Below, piece after piece: positions 3,185 through 37,262 of a DNA stretch of 64,000 nt (position 1 is the stretch's first letter; every line of letters starts with the position of its first letter). The stretch lies in assembly GCF_030064675.1 (NCBI RefSeq), contig NZ_CP116413.1:3690001-3754000 (forward strand), read 5' to 3'. This DNA comes from Crossiella sp. CA-258035 (GTDB lineage Bacteria > Actinomycetota > Actinomycetes > Mycobacteriales > Pseudonocardiaceae). The notes beneath the pieces were generated by a model. The model saw only the letters and a program-made list of their open reading frames with translations. It searched no databases and was not told where the DNA came from. The position numbers were made by a program, and so were the translations under genes.

Positions 3185-3846
3185 GGGGTGACCACCAGCC
3201 GGAAGCCGACGCCGCGCACGGTCTCGATGGTGAAGGCGCCGGGGAACTTCCGGCGCAGCGAGCCGATGTGCACGTCCAGGGTCTTGGTGGGGCCGAACCA
3301 GTTGGCGTCCCACACCGCTTCCATGATCTGTTCCCTGGTGAACACCGCGCCCGGCTCCTCGGTGAGGAAGGCCAGCAGGTCGAACTCCTTGGGCGTCAGC
3401 AGCACCTCGGCTTCGTCCATGAAGGACCGTCGGCCGCGGCGGTCGAGGCTGAGCCGCCCGTAGCGGTCCGGGTGCGCCGCTGCCGGTTGCTCGGCGGGAC
3501 GGACCCGGCGCAGCACGGCGCGCATCCGGGCGATCACCTCGCGCACGCCGAAGGGTTTGGTGACGTAGTCGTCCGCGCCGATCTCCAGGCCGACCACCCG
3601 GTCCACCTCGTCGCTGCGCGCGCTGATCACGATGATCGGCACGTCGCCGCGGGCCCGCAGCTCCCGGCAGACGTCCAGCCCGTCGGTGTCCGGCAGGCCG
3701 AGGTCGAGCAGCACCAGCTCCGCCTCGGCCGCGGCCAGCGCGGCCGCGCCGGTGCGCACCCAGTCGACCTCGAAGCCGTAGCGGCGCAGGCCGCGGCGCA
3801 GCGACTCGGCGATCGGTTCGTCGTCCTCAACCAGCAGCACTCGCAC
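3181..3846 (-). CDS. OmpR/PhoB-family response regulator
   Basis: 221 residues from a GTG start. The receiver domain has the acidic pair Asp8-Asp9, the phosphorylation site Asp48 (VLLDLGLPD), Ser75 and Lys97 (VTKPF). The C-terminal winged helix (motif TPKEFDLLAFLTEEPG... and HIGSLRRKF) is the DNA-binding OmpR type. The GTG at 3846 is chosen because it begins the canonical receiver sequence RVLLVEDDEP; the longer frame upstream has no family resemblance. It is the first gene of the pair and translationally coupled to the kinase. It lies divergent from the GH127 gene, so control of that gene is possible but not shown. Confidence 0.92.
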   Translation of the reverse strand: MRVLLVEDDEPIAESLRRGLRRYGFEVDWVRTGAAALAAAEAELVLLDLGLPDTDGLDVCRELRARGDVPIIVISARSDEVDRVVGLEIGADDYVTKPFGVREVIARMRAVLRRVRPAEQPAAAHPDRYGRLSLDRRGRRSFMDEAEVLLTPKEFDLLAFLTEEPGAVFTREQIMEAVWDANWFGPTKTLDVHIGSLRRKFPGAFTIETVRGVGFRLVVTP

Positions 3847-3908
3847 GCGCGCATCGTCGCACGCCGGGCGCGTGAACGCGGGCCGGCTCTCGGCGTGGCA
3901 GGGCCGGA

Positions 3909-3938
3909 ATTCGACGGGAATTCGACCACGCATTCGAC
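3909..3938. promoter_or_regulatory. Triple ATTCGAC repeat upstream of the GH127 gene
   Basis: ATTCGAC occurs at 3909-3915, 3920-3926 and 3932-3938, spaced 11 and 12 bp, about one helical turn. The core TTCGA is shared with the ATTCGATTCGAAT operators near 38432, 48748 and 56494. Probably a binding site for a LacI-family regulator of the pectin/arabinan genes (inference). Confidence 0.5.
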
Positions 3939-4005
3939 ATTCATTGTCCGCGATATGTGGTTTCCCTTAATCTCCAATGCATTCCCCCTTTGAGTGGAGT
4001 GGCTC

Positions 4006-6726: not shown

Positions 6727-8100
6727 TCAGGCGGGCACCGCGGGATGGGCGTTGCGGACCAGCATGGTGAACTGCTCGTGGAACCAGTGTCCGGCCAGCG
6801 GGGAGTCCGGCAAGGCCCCGGTCTTGTGGCCGCCCGCGTTCGGCGGGACGAACTCCGGGTCGCACATGGGGTCCGGCTTCTTGCCCTCCGGGTTTTGGAT
6901 GTACTTGCTCGCGCCGTCGGACTCGCCCGGCGGCTTGATCCAGACCAGCGCGTCCAGGTGCGGGTGGCCCTGGGGCTTCGCCTGCGGGGGCTGGCCCAGG
7001 CCGGTGGCGCTGACGTTGCACCACAGGCCGCGGTGCGCTCGTCTGTCTACTTTGGACTCCGCGACATAGGTGTCCAGGTCGGTGCTGGCGCTGGGGCCGC
7101 TCGGGCGGTTCGGGCCGCCCCAGCCGTTGCGGCCGGTGTCCACCAGCATGCCGATGCCCTCGGGCCAGCCCTGGGCGCGGAAGGCGGTGTGCAGGGCCGC
7201 GGTGAAGTCGGCCTCGTCGAAGTTCGGGTTCCACTCGAAGTACTTCGACGAGCGCACCGGCTGGCCCCCGACGGGCAGGCCCGGATCGGGCAGGTGCGGC
7301 TCGGCCAGCGGGGTGTAGTTCGACACGTTGGTCACGAATCCGTCCACACTGGACAGTCCGGCGGCGGTGCCGCGGATGGTGTCGGTGTAGAGCGCCACGG
7401 TGTCGCGCAGGTTGGTGTCCCAGCCGAGCCAGCCGGCGTGCGCGATGTCCAGGTAGTTGTAGACGTTGGGGATCGCGTGCAGCTTGTTCACCGCGTAGCG
7501 GACCGCGTCCACGTAGATGCCGCTGGCCTTGGCCTGCGCGCACTCCGGGTCGGCCTGGTTGGTGGCCAGGTTGGGCAGGCCGTCCGGCTCGATCACCGCG
7601 ACGATCCGGATGCCGGCGTACTTCGGGTTGCGGAAGGTGCGGGCGATGACGTCGATGTACTCGCGCTGGTACCGGGCCAGTCCGGCCGCGGTCAGCGGCA
7701 GCTCGCCGCTGGAGGCCAGCGCGGCGCAGTCCCGGCCGGGCAGGTCGTAGATCACGAACGTGGCGGTGATCGGCTTGCCCGGTTTCTTCTGCGCCAGCGC
7801 GGCGTCCAGGTGGCCCTTGAGGCTGCGACGGTCACCGTTGGGCTTGCCGCCGTAGATGGCCGCGATCCGGTCCAGCCACACCGCGGTCGGATAGGTCTTG
7901 ACGGTGGCCATCTTGGCCCTGAGCGCGGGGTCGGCGGTCCTGGCGATCGAGGAGTCCACCAGTGCCGCGTAGTCCGGGTTGCGGTAGCTGGTGGCGCCCG
8001 CGAACGGGTTGTCGGCATGCGGCGGGGCCGGGCTGGCCTCAGCCGCGACCGGAGCGGTCACGGCCAGGGCCGCGGCCAGTGCCATGGCTAGTTTTCGCAA
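6727..8100 (-). CDS. Secreted GH6 cellulase (no binding module)
   Basis: 457 residues with a Sec signal peptide (MRKLAMALAAALAVTAPVAAEA). GH6 enzymes cleave beta-1,4-glucan with inversion, mostly releasing cellobiose. The hallmarks are YDLPGRDCAAL (the Asp is the usual catalytic acid), VIEPDGLPNL, ARNGWGGPNRP-type loop (DTGRNGWGGPNRP) and WIKPPGESDG with the conserved Asp. No CBM is present, unlike the paralogue at 9363. The start is TTG at 8100 with GGAG about 10 bases upstream; an in-frame ATG at 8085 is an alternative. A CebR-type box stands 37 bp upstream. Confidence 0.93.
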   Translation of the reverse strand: MRKLAMALAAALAVTAPVAAEASPAPPHADNPFAGATSYRNPDYAALVDSSIARTADPALRAKMATVKTYPTAVWLDRIAAIYGGKPNGDRRSLKGHLDAALAQKKPGKPITATFVIYDLPGRDCAALASSGELPLTAAGLARYQREYIDVIARTFRNPKYAGIRIVAVIEPDGLPNLATNQADPECAQAKASGIYVDAVRYAVNKLHAIPNVYNYLDIAHAGWLGWDTNLRDTVALYTDTIRGTAAGLSSVDGFVTNVSNYTPLAEPHLPDPGLPVGGQPVRSSKYFEWNPNFDEADFTAALHTAFRAQGWPEGIGMLVDTGRNGWGGPNRPSGPSASTDLDTYVAESKVDRRAHRGLWCNVSATGLGQPPQAKPQGHPHLDALVWIKPPGESDGASKYIQNPEGKKPDPMCDPEFVPPNAGGHKTGALPDSPLAGHWFHEQFTMLVRNAHPAVPA

Positions 8101-8136
8101 CGGGATGCTCCAGGAGTGGCAGGGGTACGGCTAGTC

Positions 8137-8150
8137 TGGGAGCGCTTCCA
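8137..8150. promoter_or_regulatory. CebR-type operator, one-mismatch variant
   Basis: TGGGAGCGCTTCCA, 13 of 14 bases matching the palindrome TGGGAGCGCTCCCA known as the cellulose-regulator CebR box. It sits between the divergent GH6 and GH5 genes and could repress both. Confidence 0.8.
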
Positions 8151-8245
8151 GTTCCAGCCGACTGTAACGGCGTCTGCCGCCGGATGTGAATGCCGGGTAA
8201 CGAGAATCCGGGGCGGCAGACCCGATCGGACTAGTGAGGTGGACT

Positions 8246-9238
8246 ATGCGATTGAGAAGATTCCTGGTGGGCGGCGTGCTGTTGAGCCTGCTCGCCAGCC
8301 TGTTCCTGGCCGGGTCGGCCCACGCGGCCACCGGCTTCACCGTGCGCGACGGCAGGCTCCACGACGCCAATGGTGTGGAGTTCGTGCTGCGCGGGGTGAA
8401 CCACGCGCACACCTGGTACCCGCAGCGGTTCAGCTCGCTCGCGCACATCTCCGCGCTCGGCGCCAACTCGGCGCGGGTGGTGCTCAGCAGCGGCGACCGC
8501 TGGACCCGCAACGACTCCGCCGACGTGACCAGGGTGGTCGCGGAGTGCAGGCGGCAGAGGCTGGTGTGCGTGCTGGAGGTGCACGACACCACCGGCTACG
8601 GCGAGCAGTCCGGCGCGGTCACCCTGGACCGGGCCGCCGACTACTGGCTCGGCATCCGCGATGCGCTGCGCGGCCAGGAGTCCTTCGTCATCATCAACAT
8701 CGGCAACGAGCCGCACGGCAACAACGGCTACCAGCGCTGGAGCGCGGACACCCGGGGCGCGATCGCCAAGCTGCGCGGGGCAGGGCTGCGGCACACGATC
8801 ATGGTGGACGCGCCGAACTGGGGCCAGGACTGGTCCTTCACCATGCGGGACGGCGCGGGCGCGGTCTTCGCCGCGGACCCGTTGCGCAACACCGTGTTCA
8901 GCGTGCACATGTACGGGGTGTACAACACCGCGGCCAAGGTCTCGGACTACCTGGGCCGGTTCCTGGCCGCCCGGCTGCCGATCGTGGTGGGGGAGTTCGG
9001 CCACTTCCACTCCGACGGCGACCCGGACGAGAACGCGATCCTCGCCTACAGCCAGGCCAACCGGATCGGCTACCTGGGCTGGTCCTGGAGCGGCAACAGC
9101 GCTGACGTGGGCTATCTGGACATGGCCACCGCCTTCGATCCGGCCCAGCTGACCAGTTGGGGACAGCGGATCTTCCACGGTCCCAACGGGATCAGGCAGA
9201 CCGCGAAACGGGCCACGGTGTTCGGCAGAGCGGCCTGA
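8246..9238 (+). CDS. Secreted GH5 glycoside hydrolase, beta-mannanase type
   Basis: 330 residues with a signal peptide (MRLRRFLVGGVLLSLLASLFLAGSAHA). The (beta/alpha)8 GH5 barrel shows LRGVNHAHTWY, the acid/base Glu in NIGNEPHG and the nucleophile Glu in VVGEFGHFH. The sequence style (VLRGVNHAHTWYPQR, GWSWSGN) resembles the bacterial beta-mannanases of subfamily 8, which cut mannan or glucomannan. There is no carbohydrate-binding module. The start is the ATG at 8246 behind GAGGTGG. It shares the intergenic CebR-type box with GH6, so hemicellulose and cellulose cutting would be induced together. Confidence 0.9.
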   Translation: MRLRRFLVGGVLLSLLASLFLAGSAHAATGFTVRDGRLHDANGVEFVLRGVNHAHTWYPQRFSSLAHISALGANSARVVLSSGDRWTRNDSADVTRVVAECRRQRLVCVLEVHDTTGYGEQSGAVTLDRAADYWLGIRDALRGQESFVIINIGNEPHGNNGYQRWSADTRGAIAKLRGAGLRHTIMVDAPNWGQDWSFTMRDGAGAVFAADPLRNTVFSVHMYGVYNTAAKVSDYLGRFLAARLPIVVGEFGHFHSDGDPDENAILAYSQANRIGYLGWSWSGNSADVGYLDMATAFDPAQLTSWGQRIFHGPNGIRQTAKRATVFGRAA

Positions 9239-31363: not shown

Positions 31364-31558
31364 TCACTCGCGCACCGTGATCGCCGCGGCCGGGCACACC
31401 GCGGCGGCCTCGCGGATCGTCTCGTGCAGCGCCGCGGGCGGCTGTTCCGCCAGCAGCACGACGATGCCGTCCTCCTCGCGCTGGTCGAACACCTCCGGCG
31501 CGAGCAGCACGCAGGTGCCCGCGCCGCAGCACCGGTCCTGGTCCACGGTGATCTTCAT
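31364..31558 (-). CDS. Single-cluster (3Fe-4S type) ferredoxin
   Basis: 64 residues. Three cluster cysteines, Cys10 or 11, Cys16 and Cys55 (DRCCGAGTC ... VCP), with Ala/Gly where a fourth would be, as in the P450-partner ferredoxins of actinomycetes. The ATG at 31558 overlaps the TGA of the TetR gene (ATGA). It probably passes electrons to the P450 of the same operon. Confidence 0.92.
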   Translation of the reverse strand: MKITVDQDRCCGAGTCVLLAPEVFDQREEDGIVVLLAEQPPAALHETIREAAAVCPAAAITVRE

Positions 31559-32202
31559 GGTTCCTCCTTCGTGACCGGGGCCAGCCACAGTCCGACCAGC
31601 GCGTCGATCAGGCCGGTGCCGGCGTCCTGCCAGCTGGACCTGGGGGTGTGGGTGTGCTCGGCGAGGGCGAGCTCGCGTTCGGCCATCATGTGCACCATCA
31701 GGTGGCGGAGCATGCCGCCGCGTTCGTCCCTGACCTCGCCGGGCAGGTCGGGCAGGCTGCGGTGCAGTCCGTCGACGATCCGGTGGAGGCTGGGGGAGGT
31801 CAGCGCCTCCTCCTCCATGATCGGGCGCAGCGACGGGTCGGTCATCACCTGCGCGGCGAAGCGGGCGAACCAGGTCGGGCTGCCCAGCGAGGCCAGGTGG
31901 TCGGTGAGCGGGCGGACCAGGCAGGTGATCCAGTCCCGGACCTCCCTGCTGCCGGCGACCTCGGCGACCATCGGGTCGCGCCGCCGCTCCATCGCGGTGG
32001 CGTGCCTGCGGATGACCGCCCGCACCAGGTCGGCCTTGGTGCCGAAGTGGTAGCCGACCACGGTGTTGTTGCCCTGCCCGGCGGCCTCGGCGACCTGCCG
32101 GTTGGACACCGCGAACACGCCGTGCTCGGCGAAGAGCCGTTCCGCGGCGGTGAGGATCTGTTCCCTGGTGGCTTGGGCCCGCGCCGCCCTGCTGGTGGTC
32201 AT
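31555..32202 (-). CDS. TetR-family regulator
   Basis: 215 residues. N-terminal HTH (TREQILTAAERLFAEHGVFAVSNRQVAEAAGQGNNTVVGYHFGTKADLVRAVI) is TetR type; the rest is a helical ligand domain. It lies between P450 and ferredoxin with ATGA overlaps on both sides, so it is made only when the P450 mRNA is translated, a feedback arrangement. ATG at 32202; an upstream in-frame ATG at 32211 is possible. Its likely operator is the palindrome at 33438-33457 before the P450 gene. Confidence 0.92.
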   Translation of the reverse strand: MTTSRAARAQATREQILTAAERLFAEHGVFAVSNRQVAEAAGQGNNTVVGYHFGTKADLVRAVIRRHATAMERRRDPMVAEVAGSREVRDWITCLVRPLTDHLASLGSPTWFARFAAQVMTDPSLRPIMEEEALTSPSLHRIVDGLHRSLPDLPGEVRDERGGMLRHLMVHMMAERELALAEHTHTPRSSWQDAGTGLIDALVGLWLAPVTKEEP

Positions 32203-33410
32203 GGCCCCCATCGAACCGGAAGCTCCCGCAGCCCGCCCACCGCGAGTCCCTCGACCTTGCGCAGTTCGGCCACCGGCACGGCCAGCTCCAGGGCAGGCAG
32301 CCTGCGCAGCAGCACCTCCAGGGTCACCTGCAGCTCGGTGCGGGCCAGCGGCTGGCCGAGGCAGGCGTGCGCGCCCGCGCCGAAGGCCAGGTGCGGGTTG
32401 GGGCTGCGGCCCAGGTCCAGCTCGGCGGCGGCGGTGAAGGCGCGCTCGTCCCGGTTGGCCGCGGCCATGCTGCACACCGCGGTGGTGCCGCTGGGCAGGG
32501 TGGTCCCGGCGATCTCGATGTCCTCGGTGAGGTAGCGCGCCATGCCGAAGCCCGCGTTGGCGTCCAGCCGCAGCGTCTCCTCCACCGCGGTGCGCACCAG
32601 CGAAGGCTCGGCCAGCAGCCGTTCCCAGTGCCGCCGGTCGGCCAGCAGCATCGCGGTCATCTTGGTGATCATGTTGGCGGTGGTCTCGTGCCCGGCGATC
32701 AGCAGGCCCATGCCGGTGGCGATCAGCGCCGGGTCGGACATCGGCTCGCCGTCCGGGCCGGTCTCCGCGATGAGGGCGCTGAGCAGGTCCTCACCGGGCT
32801 CGGCGCGCTTGGCCGCGATGTGCCCGGCCATGTACCGGGCGAACTCCGCCTGCGCCAGGTCCATCTCGGCCTGGGTGTAGCGGGTCATGCTCAGCAGCGC
32901 GTCCGACCAGTGCGCGAAGCGGTCCCGGTCGGCATCCGGCACGCCGAGCAGGTCGCAGATCACCCACACCGGCAGCGGAAAGCCCAGCGCCGCCTTGAGA
33001 TCCGCGGGCGAGCCCTTGGCCACCATGTCGTCCACCAGCTGCTCGGCCATCGCCTCGATGGCGGGCCGCAGCGCGTTCATCCGCTTGGCGGTGAACCACT
33101 TGCCGATCATCCGCCGCCAGCGCAGGTGCCCTTCGCCGTGCTGGGGGAGCACAGTGGACATCTCGTTGTTGAACAGTCCGCCGGACTCGGTGTCGGCGAC
33201 GCGGGCCGCGTTGTCCGCCGCGGTCGGCCTGGTGAACCGGGGGTCGGCCAGCACGCTCTTGACGTCCTCGTAGCGGGTGATCAGCGTGGCCTCGTCCCCG
33301 CTGGCCAGCTGCACCTTGGCCACTGGGCAGCGCTCCTGGTAGCTGGCCCACTCGGCGGGTGGCTCCAGGGCGGCGTCGGACTCGAACGGGAAGCGGGGCA
33401 GCTGGGTCAT
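32199..33410 (-). CDS. Cytochrome P450
   Basis: 403 residues. I-helix AGHETTANM (proton-delivery Glu-Thr-Thr), ExxR in EETLRLDAN, and heme-binding loop FGAGAHACLGQPLARTEL with the Cys ligand. The size and style fit bacterial class I P450s such as CYP105/107, which need a ferredoxin; one is encoded two genes downstream. ATG 33410 is chosen over a longer frame that overlaps the operator. Substrate unknown; a tailoring step on the product of the adenylation operon upstream is a hypothesis. Confidence 0.93.
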   Translation of the reverse strand: MTQLPRFPFESDAALEPPAEWASYQERCPVAKVQLASGDEATLITRYEDVKSVLADPRFTRPTAADNAARVADTESGGLFNNEMSTVLPQHGEGHLRWRRMIGKWFTAKRMNALRPAIEAMAEQLVDDMVAKGSPADLKAALGFPLPVWVICDLLGVPDADRDRFAHWSDALLSMTRYTQAEMDLAQAEFARYMAGHIAAKRAEPGEDLLSALIAETGPDGEPMSDPALIATGMGLLIAGHETTANMITKMTAMLLADRRHWERLLAEPSLVRTAVEETLRLDANAGFGMARYLTEDIEIAGTTLPSGTTAVCSMAAANRDERAFTAAAELDLGRSPNPHLAFGAGAHACLGQPLARTELQVTLEVLLRRLPALELAVPVAELRKVEGLAVGGLRELPVRWGP

Positions 33411-33437: not shown

Positions 33438-33462
33438 TAAGTCAATCAACTGACTTAAGTTG
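33438..33462. promoter_or_regulatory. Overlapping palindromes before the P450 operon, likely TetR operator
   Basis: TAAGTCA-N6-TGACTTA (33438-33457) with a second inverted repeat CAACT-N6-AGTTG (33447-33451, 33458-33462). It lies 28 bp before the P450 start and overlaps the last codons and stop (33442) of the anti-sigma gene. Confidence 0.7.
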
Positions 33463-33816
33463 GCGGTGGGGGCGCGGGGTCGCAAGCCAGGTGGCCAGCA
33501 GCGCCCCGGCGAGCACTGCGGTCACGACCCCGGCGGTGGTGCCGAACCTGGCCCACCGGGCCTTGCGTGCCGCGCGGACCAGCCCGGCGTGCAGGGCTTC
33601 CGGGGGCGCGGGACCCGCCGGGTCGAGCAGCTCGGCCGCCTGCTCCCTGGCCACCGTGGCGAGCAGGCCGGGCAGCCCGGCGAACCCGGCGACCGCGCGG
33701 GCGCACGGGCGGCAGGCATGCAGGTGTCCTTCGTAGTCCCGGCGCTCGGTGTGTGACAGCGCGCCCAGCAGATAGGCGGCGTCCCACTCCCGGTACGGGT
33801 CGGCTGGTGGCGTCAC
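33442..33816 (-). CDS. Zinc-finger (zf-HC2) anti-sigma factor
   Basis: 124 residues. Cytoplasmic N-terminus with the H-x3-C-x2-C zinc motif (HLHACRPCARAV) of the ZAS family, then one membrane segment (FGTTAGVVTAVLAGALLATWLA) near the C-terminus and almost no outer domain. The GTG start at 33816 overlaps the sigma factor stop (GTGA). It would hold the ECF sigma factor at the membrane until a signal releases it; the very short outside part suggests that a partner membrane protein supplies the signal. Confidence 0.9.
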   Translation of the reverse strand: MTPPADPYREWDAAYLLGALSHTERRDYEGHLHACRPCARAVAGFAGLPGLLATVAREQAAELLDPAGPAPPEALHAGLVRAARKARWARFGTTAGVVTAVLAGALLATWLATPRPHRQLKSVD

Positions 33817-34322
33817 CGGCTGGTCAGCCCCTTCTCCCGGAGGGCGCGGCGCAACGCGCGCAGGCCGTAGTGCAGGCGGGAGCGCACGGTGCCCTGCGGC
33901 ACCGCCAGGTCCACCGCCAGCTCGGCCACCGAGTGCCCGAGGTAGAACGCGCGGATGATGACCGTGCGGTGCTCGGTGGTCAGCTGGGTCAGCACCTCGG
34001 TGATCACCCAGGCGTCCAGCACCGAGTCGGTCTGGTCGGGGCGCGCCGGGTCGGGCACCCTGGCCGCGCCCACCTCCCGCCGCGAGTGCGCGCTGCGGCG
34101 TTCGTCGACGACCACGTTGCGCGCCACCCGGAACAGCCAGGCCCGCGCCGCCGACTCGCCCTGGTCCAGCACCGCCGGGCTGCGCCACAGCCGCAGCAGG
34201 CTCTCCTGGACCACGTCCTGGGAGAGCTGTTCGTCGCCGGTCAGCCGCAGCGCGAAGCGCCGCAGCGCGGGCGCGTGGCGGTCGTGCACCAGGCGGAGCA
34301 GCTCCGCCGCCGTGGTGGCCAC
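33813..34322 (-). CDS. ECF RNA polymerase sigma factor
   Basis: 169 residues. Region 2 (RFALRLTGDEQLSQDVVQESLLRLWRSP) and region 4 (LTTEHRTVIIRAFYLGHSVAELAVDLAVPQGTVRSRLHYGLRALRRAL) are clear, with no C-terminal extension. The chosen GTG 34322 lies one base after the stop of the membrane protein gene; the longer frame to 34370 overlaps that gene and lacks family sequence. It is third in a four-gene coupled operon, so it may drive its own operon and others. Confidence 0.9.
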   Translation of the reverse strand: MATTAAELLRLVHDRHAPALRRFALRLTGDEQLSQDVVQESLLRLWRSPAVLDQGESAARAWLFRVARNVVVDERRSAHSRREVGAARVPDPARPDQTDSVLDAWVITEVLTQLTTEHRTVIIRAFYLGHSVAELAVDLAVPQGTVRSRLHYGLRALRRALREKGLTSR

Positions 34323-34323
34323 C

Positions 34324-35592
34324 TCAGGAGTCCCAGATCGCGCCGTAGGCCGGAATCCCTTGTGCCTCAAGGGACTCGACCACGTGCCAGGTGGTCTTCC
34401 GGTTGGAGATGCAGATGACGGCCTCCGCGCCGGACTCCCGGTGCGCGCGCAGCGCCAGCTCGACCAGGTCGGGCTTGCCGTCGCGGTCGGTGTCCCAGAT
34501 GACCGCCTCCGGCTGCACGGACTCGATCTCGGCCACCAGCGCCTCGCCGTAGGTGCGCACCGGGTTCCTGGTCGACCACACCAGGCGGGCCGGGGTGTCC
34601 CCGGCGAGCAGGTGCGGCAGGCACGGCCCGATGCCGCTGCCGGTGGCCACCCACACCACGCCGCGGAAGAGCCGGTCGATGTTGCCCACGCCCGCGGTCG
34701 GGATGCCCTTGACCCACAGGTGCGTGGGTTTGTCGTCCACCAGCCCGCCGGTCCAGTCGCCGGCGCGGGAGATGGTGAGCCGGAAACCGGAGCGGCCGGG
34801 CGCGGGCACGTTGGCGAAGGAATGCCACTCCAGCAACGGGTTCCGGCTCACCGCGGTGGAGGACCCGGCGAACGGGGTGACGCCGTGGTCGAAGGCCACC
34901 AGGGCCACGTGCCGGGACGGCGTGCTGATCCGCACCGGCACCCGGCGCAGCCGCAGCCAGGGCAGCGCCACGCTGGTCACCACCACCAGCAGGGCCCAGA
35001 ACGGCGCGGAGCCGAGGAATACCCGGCCCTGCGCCTGCGCCAGCGCGGCGGCGTGCGCGGTGAAGAGCACCAGCAGCGCCCAGCCGCCGAAGCGGTGGCA
35101 GCGCTCGAACAGGTCGTGCCGGGCCGCGCGCAGCTTCGGCAGCGCGAACACCACCATGGCGACCAGCAGCACCGCGATGGCCCAGGTGCTCACCAGCAGC
35201 GCTGGGGGGCCGCCGCGGGCGGTGATCACCCAGGCCAGCACCGCGAACCAGGCCGTGCCACCGATCGCGGCGCCGACGTGCAGGCCGCCGAAGTGGTAGA
35301 CCTTGCCCAGCGTCCACCGCACCCGCAGCGGCCAGTGCTTCGGCGCGCTGGTGGCCAGCCGGAACAGCAGGTTGATCACGTGCTGCTGGCGGATCAGCAC
35401 GGCCAGCAGCAGGTTGCCGAGCACCAGCCACAGCAGCACGTCCAGGTCGGCACGCCAGTCGGTGGCCAGTGCCAGCACCAGGTTGGCCAGCAGCACCGCG
35501 GCCAGCAGCCGGTTGTGGTGGGTGAAGGGCCTGCGCCGCAGCCGGGCGCGCCAGCCCGCAGGGGCGGGGGCCAGGACCGGGGCGGCGCTCAC
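34324..35592 (-). CDS. Multi-pass membrane protein with FAD/NAD(P)-reductase-like domain
   Basis: 422 residues. About six membrane segments between residues 28 and 215, with paired His-containing stretches (FGGLHVG, ERCHRFGGW, FTAHA) that could bind heme. The C-terminal half is reductase-like: a beta-barrel (about 220-300) and a nucleotide motif GVVWVATGSGIGPCLPHLL, as in ferredoxin-NADP reductase folds. It resembles TmpA-type membrane flavoproteins known from fungi, and the A-domain next door recalls their partner or fused domains. This is from memory of the family and not proven. GTG 35592 overlaps the A-domain stop (GTGA). Confidence 0.75.
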   Translation of the reverse strand: MSAAPVLAPAPAGWRARLRRRPFTHHNRLLAAVLLANLVLALATDWRADLDVLLWLVLGNLLLAVLIRQQHVINLLFRLATSAPKHWPLRVRWTLGKVYHFGGLHVGAAIGGTAWFAVLAWVITARGGPPALLVSTWAIAVLLVAMVVFALPKLRAARHDLFERCHRFGGWALLVLFTAHAAALAQAQGRVFLGSAPFWALLVVVTSVALPWLRLRRVPVRISTPSRHVALVAFDHGVTPFAGSSTAVSRNPLLEWHSFANVPAPGRSGFRLTISRAGDWTGGLVDDKPTHLWVKGIPTAGVGNIDRLFRGVVWVATGSGIGPCLPHLLAGDTPARLVWSTRNPVRTYGEALVAEIESVQPEAVIWDTDRDGKPDLVELALRAHRESGAEAVICISNRKTTWHVVESLEAQGIPAYGAIWDS

Positions 35593-37118
35593 GCGACGGT
35601 CTCCGCCCGCTGGCCGGTCAGCCGGGTCAGCAGCGCCCGCCGGTCCACCTTGCCGCGCTCGGTCAGCGGCAGCCGGTCCACCGGCACGATCAGCGCGGGC
35701 ACGCAGTAGTAGGGCAGCTGGGCGGCCACCGAGTGGCGGACCGCCTCGGGCACGGCGGTTGCCGGGCTGACGAACCCGACCAGCCCGCCCTCGTAGAGCA
35801 CCGTGCTGGCCCGCCGGCAGCCGGGCGCGCGTTCCAGCGCCGCGGTGACCGCGTCCAGTTCGACCCGGAAACCCTTGACCTTCACCTGGTCGTCGGTGCG
35901 CCCGTGGTGTTCCAGCTGGCCGTCGGTGGTCCAGCGGACCAGGTCGCGGGTGCGGAACATCAGGCCGCCGCCCAGGAACGGGTCCGGGCGGTAGCGCTGC
36001 GCGGTGAGGTCGGCGTCGCCGAGGTAGCCGCCGGTGACGCAGGCGCCACCGGCCCACATCTCGCCGACCTCGCCGATCCGGCACGGGTTGAGCGCCTCGT
36101 CGAGCACGTAGACGGTGGTGTTGGGCACCGGGCGGCCGATGGTCAGCCTGCCGGTGGCCGGGTCGTAGCGCTGCACGGTGTTGACGATGGTGACCTCGGT
36201 GGGGCCGCAGGCGTTGTGGAAGACCGCGGTGCGCGACCAGGCGCGGGCCAGCGCGGGCGGGCAGCGCTCACCGGCCACCGCGACCACCCGCACCCGCGGG
36301 CAGTCCCTGGGGTCCACAGTGGACAGCACCCCGGGGGTGGCGATCAGCGCGGTCGCGGTGCGGGCCGCCGCGGTCGGGTCGTCGCCGCGCACCAGCACGC
36401 AGCCGCCGTTGGCCAGCGTGCCCAGCACCTCCCACACGGCCATGTCGAAGGCGATGTTGAGCAGCTGCGGCACCCGGTCGCCGGGGCCGATGCCGAGCGA
36501 ACCCGGTGCGGTGAGCAGGACGTTGCACAGGTTGGCGTGCGTGACCCTGACCCCGTTGGGCCTGCCGGTGGTGCCCGAGGTGAAGATCACCACCGCGGTC
36601 TCGCCGCACCGGGCGGGCAGTGCCGCGGTGGCGCTCGGGTGGTCGTCGATCGTGATCACCGTGCCGAGGCCCGCGGGCACGAGTCCCTGGTGTGCCGTGG
36701 TGGTCAGCACGACCTCGATGTCCGCCACCGCGGCGATGTGCCGCAGGTGCGGCGGCGGGGTGAGCCGGATGTCCTGCGGCACATAGGCCGCACCGGCTTT
36801 GAGCACCGCGAGCATGCCCACCACCATGGCCACCGACCTGGTCAGGAACAGCCCGACGTGCGCGCCGGGGCGCACCCCGTGCTCGATGAGCAGCCGGGCC
36901 AGCGCGGTGGCCCTGCGGTCCAGCTCGGCGTAGGTCACCGACTCGCCGAGGTGCTCCACGGCGGGGGCCTCCGGGCAGGCCGCGGCCCGCGCCTGGACCG
37001 CGAGGTGGACGTGGGTGAACGGGACTGGTGTGCGTGGCCCCCATCCGAAGCGGTCGAAGAGCACGCGCTCGTGCGGGGGCAGGCCGCGCAGGGCAGGGGA
37101 TTCGACGATCGGGGTCAC
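35589..37118 (-). CDS. Stand-alone NRPS-type adenylation domain protein
   Basis: 509 residues, ANL superfamily: activates a carboxylate as acyl-AMP. Core motifs: A3 FTSGTTGRPNGV (about 179-190; the usual Lys of PKG is Asn188), A4 FDMAVWE (Asp225 kept, which suggests an amino-acid substrate), A5 NACGPTE (302-308), A7 RTRDL (389-393, Gly replaced by Arg), A8 GRTDDQVKVKGFRVELD, A10 GKVDRR with the catalytic Lys. The chain ends just after A10, so there is no carrier or reductase domain. GTG start at 37118. First gene of the operon with the membrane reductase, sigma and anti-sigma genes. Confidence 0.88.
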   Translation of the reverse strand: MTPIVESPALRGLPPHERVLFDRFGWGPRTPVPFTHVHLAVQARAAACPEAPAVEHLGESVTYAELDRRATALARLLIEHGVRPGAHVGLFLTRSVAMVVGMLAVLKAGAAYVPQDIRLTPPPHLRHIAAVADIEVVLTTTAHQGLVPAGLGTVITIDDHPSATAALPARCGETAVVIFTSGTTGRPNGVRVTHANLCNVLLTAPGSLGIGPGDRVPQLLNIAFDMAVWEVLGTLANGGCVLVRGDDPTAAARTATALIATPGVLSTVDPRDCPRVRVVAVAGERCPPALARAWSRTAVFHNACGPTEVTIVNTVQRYDPATGRLTIGRPVPNTTVYVLDEALNPCRIGEVGEMWAGGACVTGGYLGDADLTAQRYRPDPFLGGGLMFRTRDLVRWTTDGQLEHHGRTDDQVKVKGFRVELDAVTAALERAPGCRRASTVLYEGGLVGFVSPATAVPEAVRHSVAAQLPYYCVPALIVPVDRLPLTERGKVDRRALLTRLTGQRAETVA

Positions 37119-37231
37119 TCCCGGATCCTTTCGCCAGGCCGGTGGTCACCCCGTCTGAACGAGACAGGTCGGGTGAATGTTCAACTAAATATCCGGAAAA
37201 CGTTGCCGGGCTTGGAAGTTGCCCGGTCGTG

Positions 37232-37262
37232 GTCGAACGCGGCGTCGAACGCGCGTCGAACG
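37232..37262. promoter_or_regulatory. Triple GTCGAACG repeat
   Basis: Copies at 37232-37239, 37244-37251 and 37255-37262, spaced 12 and 11 bp. It lies in the 173-bp gap between the end of the LacI gene and the start of the A-domain operon. The core GTCGAA is the complement of the TTCGAC repeated at 3909-3938 with the same spacing. Confidence 0.5.

Follow-up and report, generated by a model that had tools for sequence, protein, structure and literature searches.

A four-gene operon of the actinomycete Crossiella sp. CA-258035 is described here, which we read, at about even confidence, as a bacterial form, divided over two genes, of the fungal TmpB/TmpL (ChNPS12) system, equipped with its own extracytoplasmic function (ECF) switch and belonging to the pathway of an alanine-type metabolite. 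The operon lies in a 64,000-nt stretch of DNA (NZ_CP116413.1, positions 3,690,001-3,754,000), to which we will refer as the window and to which all coordinates of the operon relate. Its genes, all on the minus strand, encode a stand-alone amino-acid adenylation protein of 509 amino acids (A; 35589-37118), recognized from Pfam, NCBIfam and a pocket alignment; a flavoprotein of 422 amino acids with six transmembrane (TM) helices and an NADPH-oxidase fold (MEM; 34324-35592), recognized from its predicted structure, a fold search and column conservation; an ECF sigma factor of 169 amino acids of SigL-like type (33813-34322; Pfam, NCBIfam); and an anti-sigma factor of 124 amino acids with an HxxxCxxC motif and one TM helix (33442-33816; motif, family search, hydropathy). 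The initial annotation had taken these four genes as one coupled operon, and both coordinates and sequence bear this out: A and MEM overlap in a GTGA, the TGA stop of MEM is separated by one base from the GTG of the sigma gene, and sigma and anti-sigma overlap in a second GTGA. The arrangement is not due to chance, because the same genes recur together in other genera.

Conservation of the unit in bacteria

The main sample was obtained by scanning named genomes with a MEM alignment, which found 407 MEM relatives; the best 80 were analysed, a choice that favours close matches, and counts over 81 rows comprise the window plus these 80 loci. A lies directly upstream of MEM in all 80 loci (largest gap between matches, 309 bases), and a gene for an enoyl-CoA hydratase (ECH) stands downstream of MEM in 76 of them (largest gap, 419). 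The window operon has no ECH gene, MEM being directly followed by sigma, and the four loci without an adjacent ECH belong to Crossiella (L060, L061) and Kribbella (L088, L090). A sigma gene was detected in 28 loci and was not detected in the other 52, of which 48 extend at least 2.5 kb past MEM. The 80 loci span Actinomycetota (including Streptomyces, Nonomuraea and Rhodococcus), Chloroflexota, Bacteroidota (including Aquimarina) and Pseudomonadota (Aliikangiella, Enterovibrio); the closest named MEM relatives, 95 and 97% identical, are those of two Crossiella strains. The A-MEM unit is real and widely conserved, with the pairing present in at least four bacterial phyla. The question whether both genes stay together in other genomes is thereby answered, and the earlier statement that an amino-acid-activating enzyme combined with a membrane reductase is known only from fungi needs correction.

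Searches at other taxonomic depths were also carried out. A family-wide search revealed a MEM relative in 46 of 297 genomes, the window's own counted; among the best 30 of the 52 places listed (the window being L002), A stands beside MEM together with a sigma gene in every case, and the anti-sigma gene was detected in 28, the remaining two stretches ending at that point. Of 20 longer family stretches, four of which are places already counted, 10 have A next to MEM. In a class-wide draw with the MEM protein as query, MEM was present in 8 of 394 genomes besides the window's own, all eight with the A-MEM-ECH order; no sigma gene was detected in these eight loci, whose stretches are short. A phylum-wide search with the MEM alignment, of low sensitivity since four candidates per genome were scored, gave 3 of 396 genomes, including the window's own. 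MEM relatives of 29-49% identity were also found in five plasmid records (Pantoea, Calothrix, Fischerella), and the two of these that were examined contain no relative of A, ECH or sigma.

Beyond the cassette, the flanking genes of the longer stretches compared mostly vary between genera. Membership in a known type of biosynthetic cluster had been named as a possible refutation; no larger common cluster was seen in the stretches compared, as judged from neighbouring genes and not by a cluster-typing program. In addition, searches of the open-access (PMC) literature gave no description of a bacterial A-MEM-ECH unit or of its sigma pair, although the individual pieces are already in print.

A side observation concerns the Bacteroidota, where a protein of one family is encoded fourth, after ECH, in all 12 loci that this phylum has among the 80 (L094, L102, L110, L113, L118 and L120, and likewise six more: L128, L130, L135, L137, L138 and L139). 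The sole member scanned (L102, 8105-8833) belongs to DUF6733 and has a signal-like start.

The adenylation protein and its putative substrate

A contains an AMP-binding domain and a weak match to the corresponding C-terminal domain in Pfam. No carrier domain was found in the Pfam scan of A, free carrier proteins elsewhere not being part of the search, so that its description as a stand-alone adenylation domain stands. A exceeds the cutoff of the NCBIfam amino-acid adenylation model and is distantly DltA-like (164 bits vs a cutoff of 476). It differs from modular non-ribosomal peptide synthetases (NRPSs) in that it has itself no carrier domain to accept the aminoacyl group. Its pocket code, DMWIAAAIVK, was read by setting the positions against gramicidin synthetase 1, with the numbering stretch checked against 1AMU and the alignment made by eye. 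The pattern DMW[IV][AI]A[ASCG]I[VI]K fits 79 of the 80 rows that cover the pocket (80 of 81 rows were usable, L115 being cut); 31 of them are identical to the window code, and a single row deviates by an L in the second position. The catalytic lysine of motif A10, K490 in the window, is kept in 81 of 81 rows. Taken together, a near-invariant pocket and a retained catalytic lysine argue for real amino-acid chemistry, and the Asp and Lys that an alpha-amino acid would require are retained in the pocket.

The specificity of this pocket can be approached through a published enzyme of Salinispora arenicola CNS-205, Sare0718. It is likewise a stand-alone A domain, has the same ten pocket residues and in vitro adenylates L-alanine out of 20 amino acids in an ATP-consuming reaction, with a Km of 0.116 mM and a kcat of 12.6 per min (PMC3360062). 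Sare0718 lies outside all ten NRPS clusters of its genome, and its named neighbours include the enoyl-CoA hydratase sare0716 and the hypothetical sare0717, the latter presumably corresponding to MEM (PMC3360062). The two loci differ in that no sigma pair is among the neighbours named in the part of that paper cited here, and in that a phosphopantetheinyl transferase gene, sare0719, adjoins Sare0718 (PMC3360062). The likeness is drawn from published pocket residues and neighbours, not from a full-sequence comparison. The prediction of the specificity pocket proposed by the initial annotation thus leads to a code whose published bearer activates L-Ala.

A second A-MEM pair (A 56-57%, MEM 61-63% identical) exists in other Crossiella genomes (L036, L037), and in L036 a Pfam scan of its surroundings showed an ECH, an aldehyde dehydrogenase, a further AMP-binding enzyme and a regulator of the MarR type. 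This neighbourhood reminds one, by analogy, of a hydroxycinnamate pathway. An aromatic-acid route of that kind, in which A-MEM would act with CoA-ligase and hydratase chemistry, could draw on these neighbours in L036 and L037 and on the fungal afeA (4-coumarate-ligase-like), which adjoins tmpA (PMC4804170). We consider it very improbable: the pocket has the Asp and Lys of alpha-amino-acid enzymes; in the published assay of Sare0718, as far as the cited part of the paper goes, neither Phe nor Tyr nor Trp produced a signal of similar strength (PMC3360062); no such neighbours occur among the window genes scanned; and a second A-like gene accompanies few of the loci compared.

Fusion of A with MEM and probable kinship with fungal TmpB/TmpL

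A and MEM are a conserved unit that is fused in some Bacteroidota: in 9 of the 80 loci, all from this phylum, both are read in one frame without a stop, giving proteins of 1001-1019 residues (a structure model of the fused protein reached a mean pLDDT of 49.9 and was not used). The fungal proteins TmpB (989 aa) and TmpL (1025 aa) likewise combine an AMP-binding domain, without carrier or condensation domain, with six TM helices and a flavin adenine dinucleotide (FAD)/NAD(P) domain (PMC4804170, PMC2766074), and TmpL carries the motif GSGIGP (PMC2766074), which is also found in MEM. Furthermore, the TmpB pocket has the Asp, Trp, Ile and Lys of PheA, with a Cys replacing A322 (PMC4804170); the four PheA-like residues are shared by the window's A, and a Cys occupies this same place in 13 of 80 bacterial pockets. 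Besides the proteins themselves, a gene for an enoyl-CoA hydratase is among the conserved neighbours of tmpB in Aspergilli (PMC4804170), as it is beside MEM in most bacterial loci. Bushley and Turgeon (2010) had found that bacterial stand-alone A domains, from Hahella and Salinispora, fall within the fungal NPS12 group (PMC2823734); no discussion of the neighbouring genes was found in the part of that work cited here. The TmpB/TmpL architecture is recovered both in the layout of A plus membrane flavoprotein and in the nine fused relatives. The window differs from the fungal system in its two overlapping genes in place of one protein, its bacterial host, its own ECF pair and the lack of a hydratase. 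By analogy of build, the A-MEM unit is constructed like fungal TmpB/NPS12 and probably belongs with it.

The membrane flavoprotein

The structure model of MEM (mean pLDDT 91.9) consists of six long hydrophobic helices, as taken from the helix list, followed by a reductase-type domain. The motif GSGIGP occupies residues 318-323, each position being at least 97% conserved in 81 rows, so that the six-TM protein with a nucleotide-binding motif proposed from the sequence is confirmed. MEM has no match in Pfam or NCBIfam (thresholds E 1 and 0.01), and 2 of 43 aligned MEM sequences match the ferric-reductase family (best E 8e-6). A fold search assigned the whole chain to the NADPH-oxidase fold, with SpNOX (8qt6) as best match (E 4.5e-12, TM-score 0.64/0.67, 431 columns) at about 15% identity. 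MEM thus shares with the NADPH oxidases (SpNOX, NOX2, DUOX) its whole-chain fold and its FAD/NAD(P)H domain, and departs from them in lacking their four-histidine, two-haem arrangement.

All 81 rows have the same four histidines, H100, H105, H159 and H166. In a weak profile match with DUOX1 (E 0.019), H166 falls on the first histidine of the THH in TM5; the NOX2 piece aligned at the same region is not significant by itself. The TM5 histidines of DUOX1 and NOX2 are taken by us to bind haem. H105 and H166 are candidate ligands of an inner haem, paired from their position: H105 begins the helix TM3, and H166 is likewise close to the beginning of TM5. At the outer haem place, 40 of 81 rows have H at position 180, and along TM3 positions 108-124 no position has H in more than 1 of 81. 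Since the outer histidine pair is not conserved, it is likely that MEM holds one inner haem and not likely that it forms a full trans-membrane electron wire; for the same reason, its electrons cannot be assumed to cross the membrane. MEM was also considered as a conventional NADPH oxidase and rejected as such, the outer haem histidine pair being missing. Two divergent MEM relatives (L046, L047; 32-33% identical), which have no A gene, present a degenerate GSGIGP motif.

The fold also bears on an envelope aminoacylation, loosely Dlt-like, in which A would activate alanine and a membrane or lipid partner would receive it. The distant DltA-likeness of A, the in vitro substrate of Sare0718 (PMC3360062) and the location of MEM in the membrane could be accommodated by such a scheme. 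Nonetheless, the fold of MEM is that of an NADPH oxidase and not of an acyltransferase, A has no carrier domain (the search having covered A itself), and the hydratase would be left unexplained; we regard this explanation as improbable.

Sigma factor, anti-sigma factor and promoter

The sigma factor contains regions 2 and 4 (Pfam) and scores 194.1 bits with the SigL family model NF007227, below its cutoff of 202. The anti-sigma factor matches a zinc-finger family just under the cutoff (20.4 vs 22.2), and its HxxxCxxC motif is present in 25 of 26 anti-sigma relatives, in agreement with the sigma and zinc anti-sigma pair first proposed. The window anti-sigma has one hydrophobic stretch (residues ~95-113) and an outer tail of 11 residues, and it was rightly described as almost devoid of an outer domain. 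By hydropathy estimate, the tail measures 0-9 residues in Lentzea, 11-12 in Crossiella, 23 in Kibdelosporangium, 38-40 in Amycolatopsis, 50 in Rhodococcus and 116-127 in Saccharothrix and Nonomuraea, the readings of L061 and L065 being irregular. With tail lengths that range from 0 to 127 residues among relatives, a large outer sensor is dispensable. In Crossiella sp. S99.2 (L061, ~7738-8060) the anti-sigma diverges past about residue 68 and has no clear TM helix, which we ascribe to a frameshift or sequencing error.

An ECF-type promoter, TGAAC-N17-CGTT, is predicted on the minus strand at 37158-37183, about 40 nt ahead of the start codon of A. All 27 sigma-bearing loci carry it upstream of A, with TGTCTCGTT present in 24, and it occurs in 0 of 51 sigma-less loci (L064 and L115, with a cut A gene, were left out). 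The motif was derived from the same loci in which it is counted, the sigma-less loci serving as independent control; single-base shuffles contain it 0.0007 times per sequence. Its distance to the A start, as placed by alignment, is 34-44 bases (57 in L086). In the genome of 9.17 Mb, the stricter TGAAC-N12-TGTCTCGTT is matched exactly at a single place, ahead of the window's A; matches with up to two mismatches number 10 in all vs 4 for a reversed-pattern control, and the one with a single mismatch (L141), at the start of a flavin-oxidoreductase-like reading frame, looks like chance and was set aside. On the MEM tree, all 29 sigma-bearing rows fall within one actinomycete clade of 33 rows (SH-aLRT 99), whose four sigma-less members (L084, L088, L090, L096) are also without the promoter. 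The sigma label changes 4 times on this quick tree, as a single gain with three later losses would produce. Promoter and sigma gene are present or absent together.

Two further observations were made on these elements. GTTCGAC is repeated upstream of the promoter (window 37236-37262), and TTCGAC repeats precede the cassette in several Lentzea and Saccharothrix loci; from their sequence, they are perhaps a second operator. Rhodococcus rhodnii (L076) has two sigma/anti-sigma pairs (3296-3954; 8019-8710) on either side of one A-MEM-ECH cassette.

The closest known counterpart of the switch is the mycobacterial SigL-RslA pair, to which it is related by its SigL-like sigma and its membrane anti-sigma with HxxxCxxC, and from which it differs in that its sigma stays under the NF007227 cutoff and drives a different operon. 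RslA loses its zinc and its affinity on oxidation (PMC2877774), and by analogy a cytosolic thiol signal to the window anti-sigma is plausible. The initial annotation had offered MEM as the sensor of the pair. The common gene string under one promoter and the short tail of the window anti-sigma would suit that proposal, which is nevertheless not supported: sigma was not seen in most MEM loci, and the tail length varies widely among relatives that keep MEM, so that the sensing part is either cytosolic or not conserved. As A-MEM occurs without a detected sigma in 52 of 80 loci and is fused in 9 of 80, MEM is primarily the partner of A, and a sensing role has in our view very little probability.

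A redox homeostasis device has also to be weighed, in which MEM, as an NAD(P)H-dependent oxidoreductase, would set the intracellular redox state, as has been proposed for fungal TmpL. A would then play a minor or regulatory part, and the dose would be adjusted by the ECF pair. It is consistent with the redox defects of TmpL mutants in two fungi (PMC2766074), with the NADPH-oxidase fold of MEM and with the HxxxCxxC type of the anti-sigma, whose relative RslA responds to oxidation as mentioned above. We hold it to be unlikely, because A accompanies MEM in all 80 loci with the pocket and lysine of a genuine amino-acid enzyme, because the hydratase would be left without a role, and because A. nidulans tmpB mutants were reported as insensitive to H2O2 or menadione in the part of the study cited (PMC4804170).

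Proposed pathway and its significance

In the split TmpB/TmpL-like pathway that we favour, A would make alanyl-AMP, or the AMP ester of a close alpha-amino acid, and would pass the activated amino acid to a thiol such as coenzyme A (CoA). The transfer to a thiol is suggested by the lack of a carrier domain in A and by the substrates of the hydratase family, which are CoA thioesters. MEM, as an NAD(P)H/FAD and probably one-haem flavocytochrome, would then carry out a redox step on the aminoacyl species, or on a lipid-soluble partner, at the inner face of the membrane. The hydratase would hydrate or isomerise the product. In the relatives it belongs to the short-chain enoyl-CoA hydratases; of the 76, 14 were aligned, and all 14 have glutamates at both catalytic positions, E114 and E134, which we take to correspond to rat E144/E164. 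The Crossiella genome contains 18 other crotonase-like matches (the best 42% identical), and one of these may possibly replace the missing ECH. The end product would be a small amino-acid-derived metabolite, an outcome already proposed in the initial annotation and judged plausible here. Sigma would transcribe its own operon in positive feedback, and the anti-sigma would hold sigma until its cytosolic zinc/thiol site is oxidised or sigma is otherwise released.

Several points weigh against this pathway and its fungal kinship. It is unusual chemistry for a stand-alone A to be paired with a hydratase of the CoA type when there is no carrier, and the aminoacyl acceptor is putative; the adjacent hydratase is, moreover, absent in Crossiella and Kribbella. 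The A3 motif of A reads PNG where the LgrA domains have KG, and the position of the A3 lysine is Asn in 80 of 80, which marks the family. Sare0718 was tested on the 20 proteinogenic amino acids only, its authors noting that another substrate may be used in vivo, and its pocket was read as specific for Val by a code server (PMC3360062). In L039-L048, which make up half of the 20 longer family stretches, MEM is 32-55% identical and A is not its direct neighbour; in one of them (L043) a distant A relative lies about 2 kb off, and judging from their sequences these A-less relatives may form a MEM-only branch, comparable to fungal TmpA. The TmpL authors regarded TmpL orthologues as confined to filamentous fungi, and the exact string of the TmpL FAD motif, RLHFD, is absent from MEM (PMC2766074), where HVALVAFD may be its counterpart. 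Finally, the kinship is drawn from architecture, one motif, published pocket residues and gene neighbourhood, and not from a fungal alignment or tree. A more ambitious form of the proposal, namely an ancient A-MEM-hydratase pathway common to bacteria and fungi that yields a redox-modified alanine-type signal, with the actinomycete version turned into an autoinducing, redox-gated ECF circuit whose regulon is a single operon, is put forward as a rather doubtful speculation.

In fungi, tmpB affects sporulation in Aspergillus (PMC4804170), and TmpB/TmpL influences sporulation, redox balance and, for two pathogenic fungi, infection (PMC4804170, PMC2766074). The bacterial version of two or three genes makes the chemistry of TmpB/TmpL testable in ordinary laboratory strains of Streptomyces, with the help of an assayed A domain of the same pocket and a single ECF promoter as switch. 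MEM, a protein without a match in Pfam and NCBIfam, has now acquired a fold and gene neighbours, and the operon clearly exemplifies how a metabolic cassette can recruit an ECF sigma factor.

Neighbouring genes in the window

The genes around the operon were considered as possible members of it. An assignment of the operon to the carbohydrate genes of the window was rejected, LacI and pectate-lyase-type neighbours recurring in two Crossiella loci only, out of 80. The P450-TetR-ferredoxin genes (31364-33410) were also dismissed as cassette members, being near-absent beside the loci of the 80 relatives: the P450 is matched in L060 (Crossiella, 96%) and, more distantly, in L109 (40%), and TetR and ferredoxin matches occur in L060 only. 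An Rfam search of the window gave no match. Where the anti-sigma and P450 genes meet, at 33438-33460, lies the palindrome TAAGTCAGTTGATTGACTTA (minus strand), whose sequence resembles an operator, perhaps one for the nearby TetR regulator.

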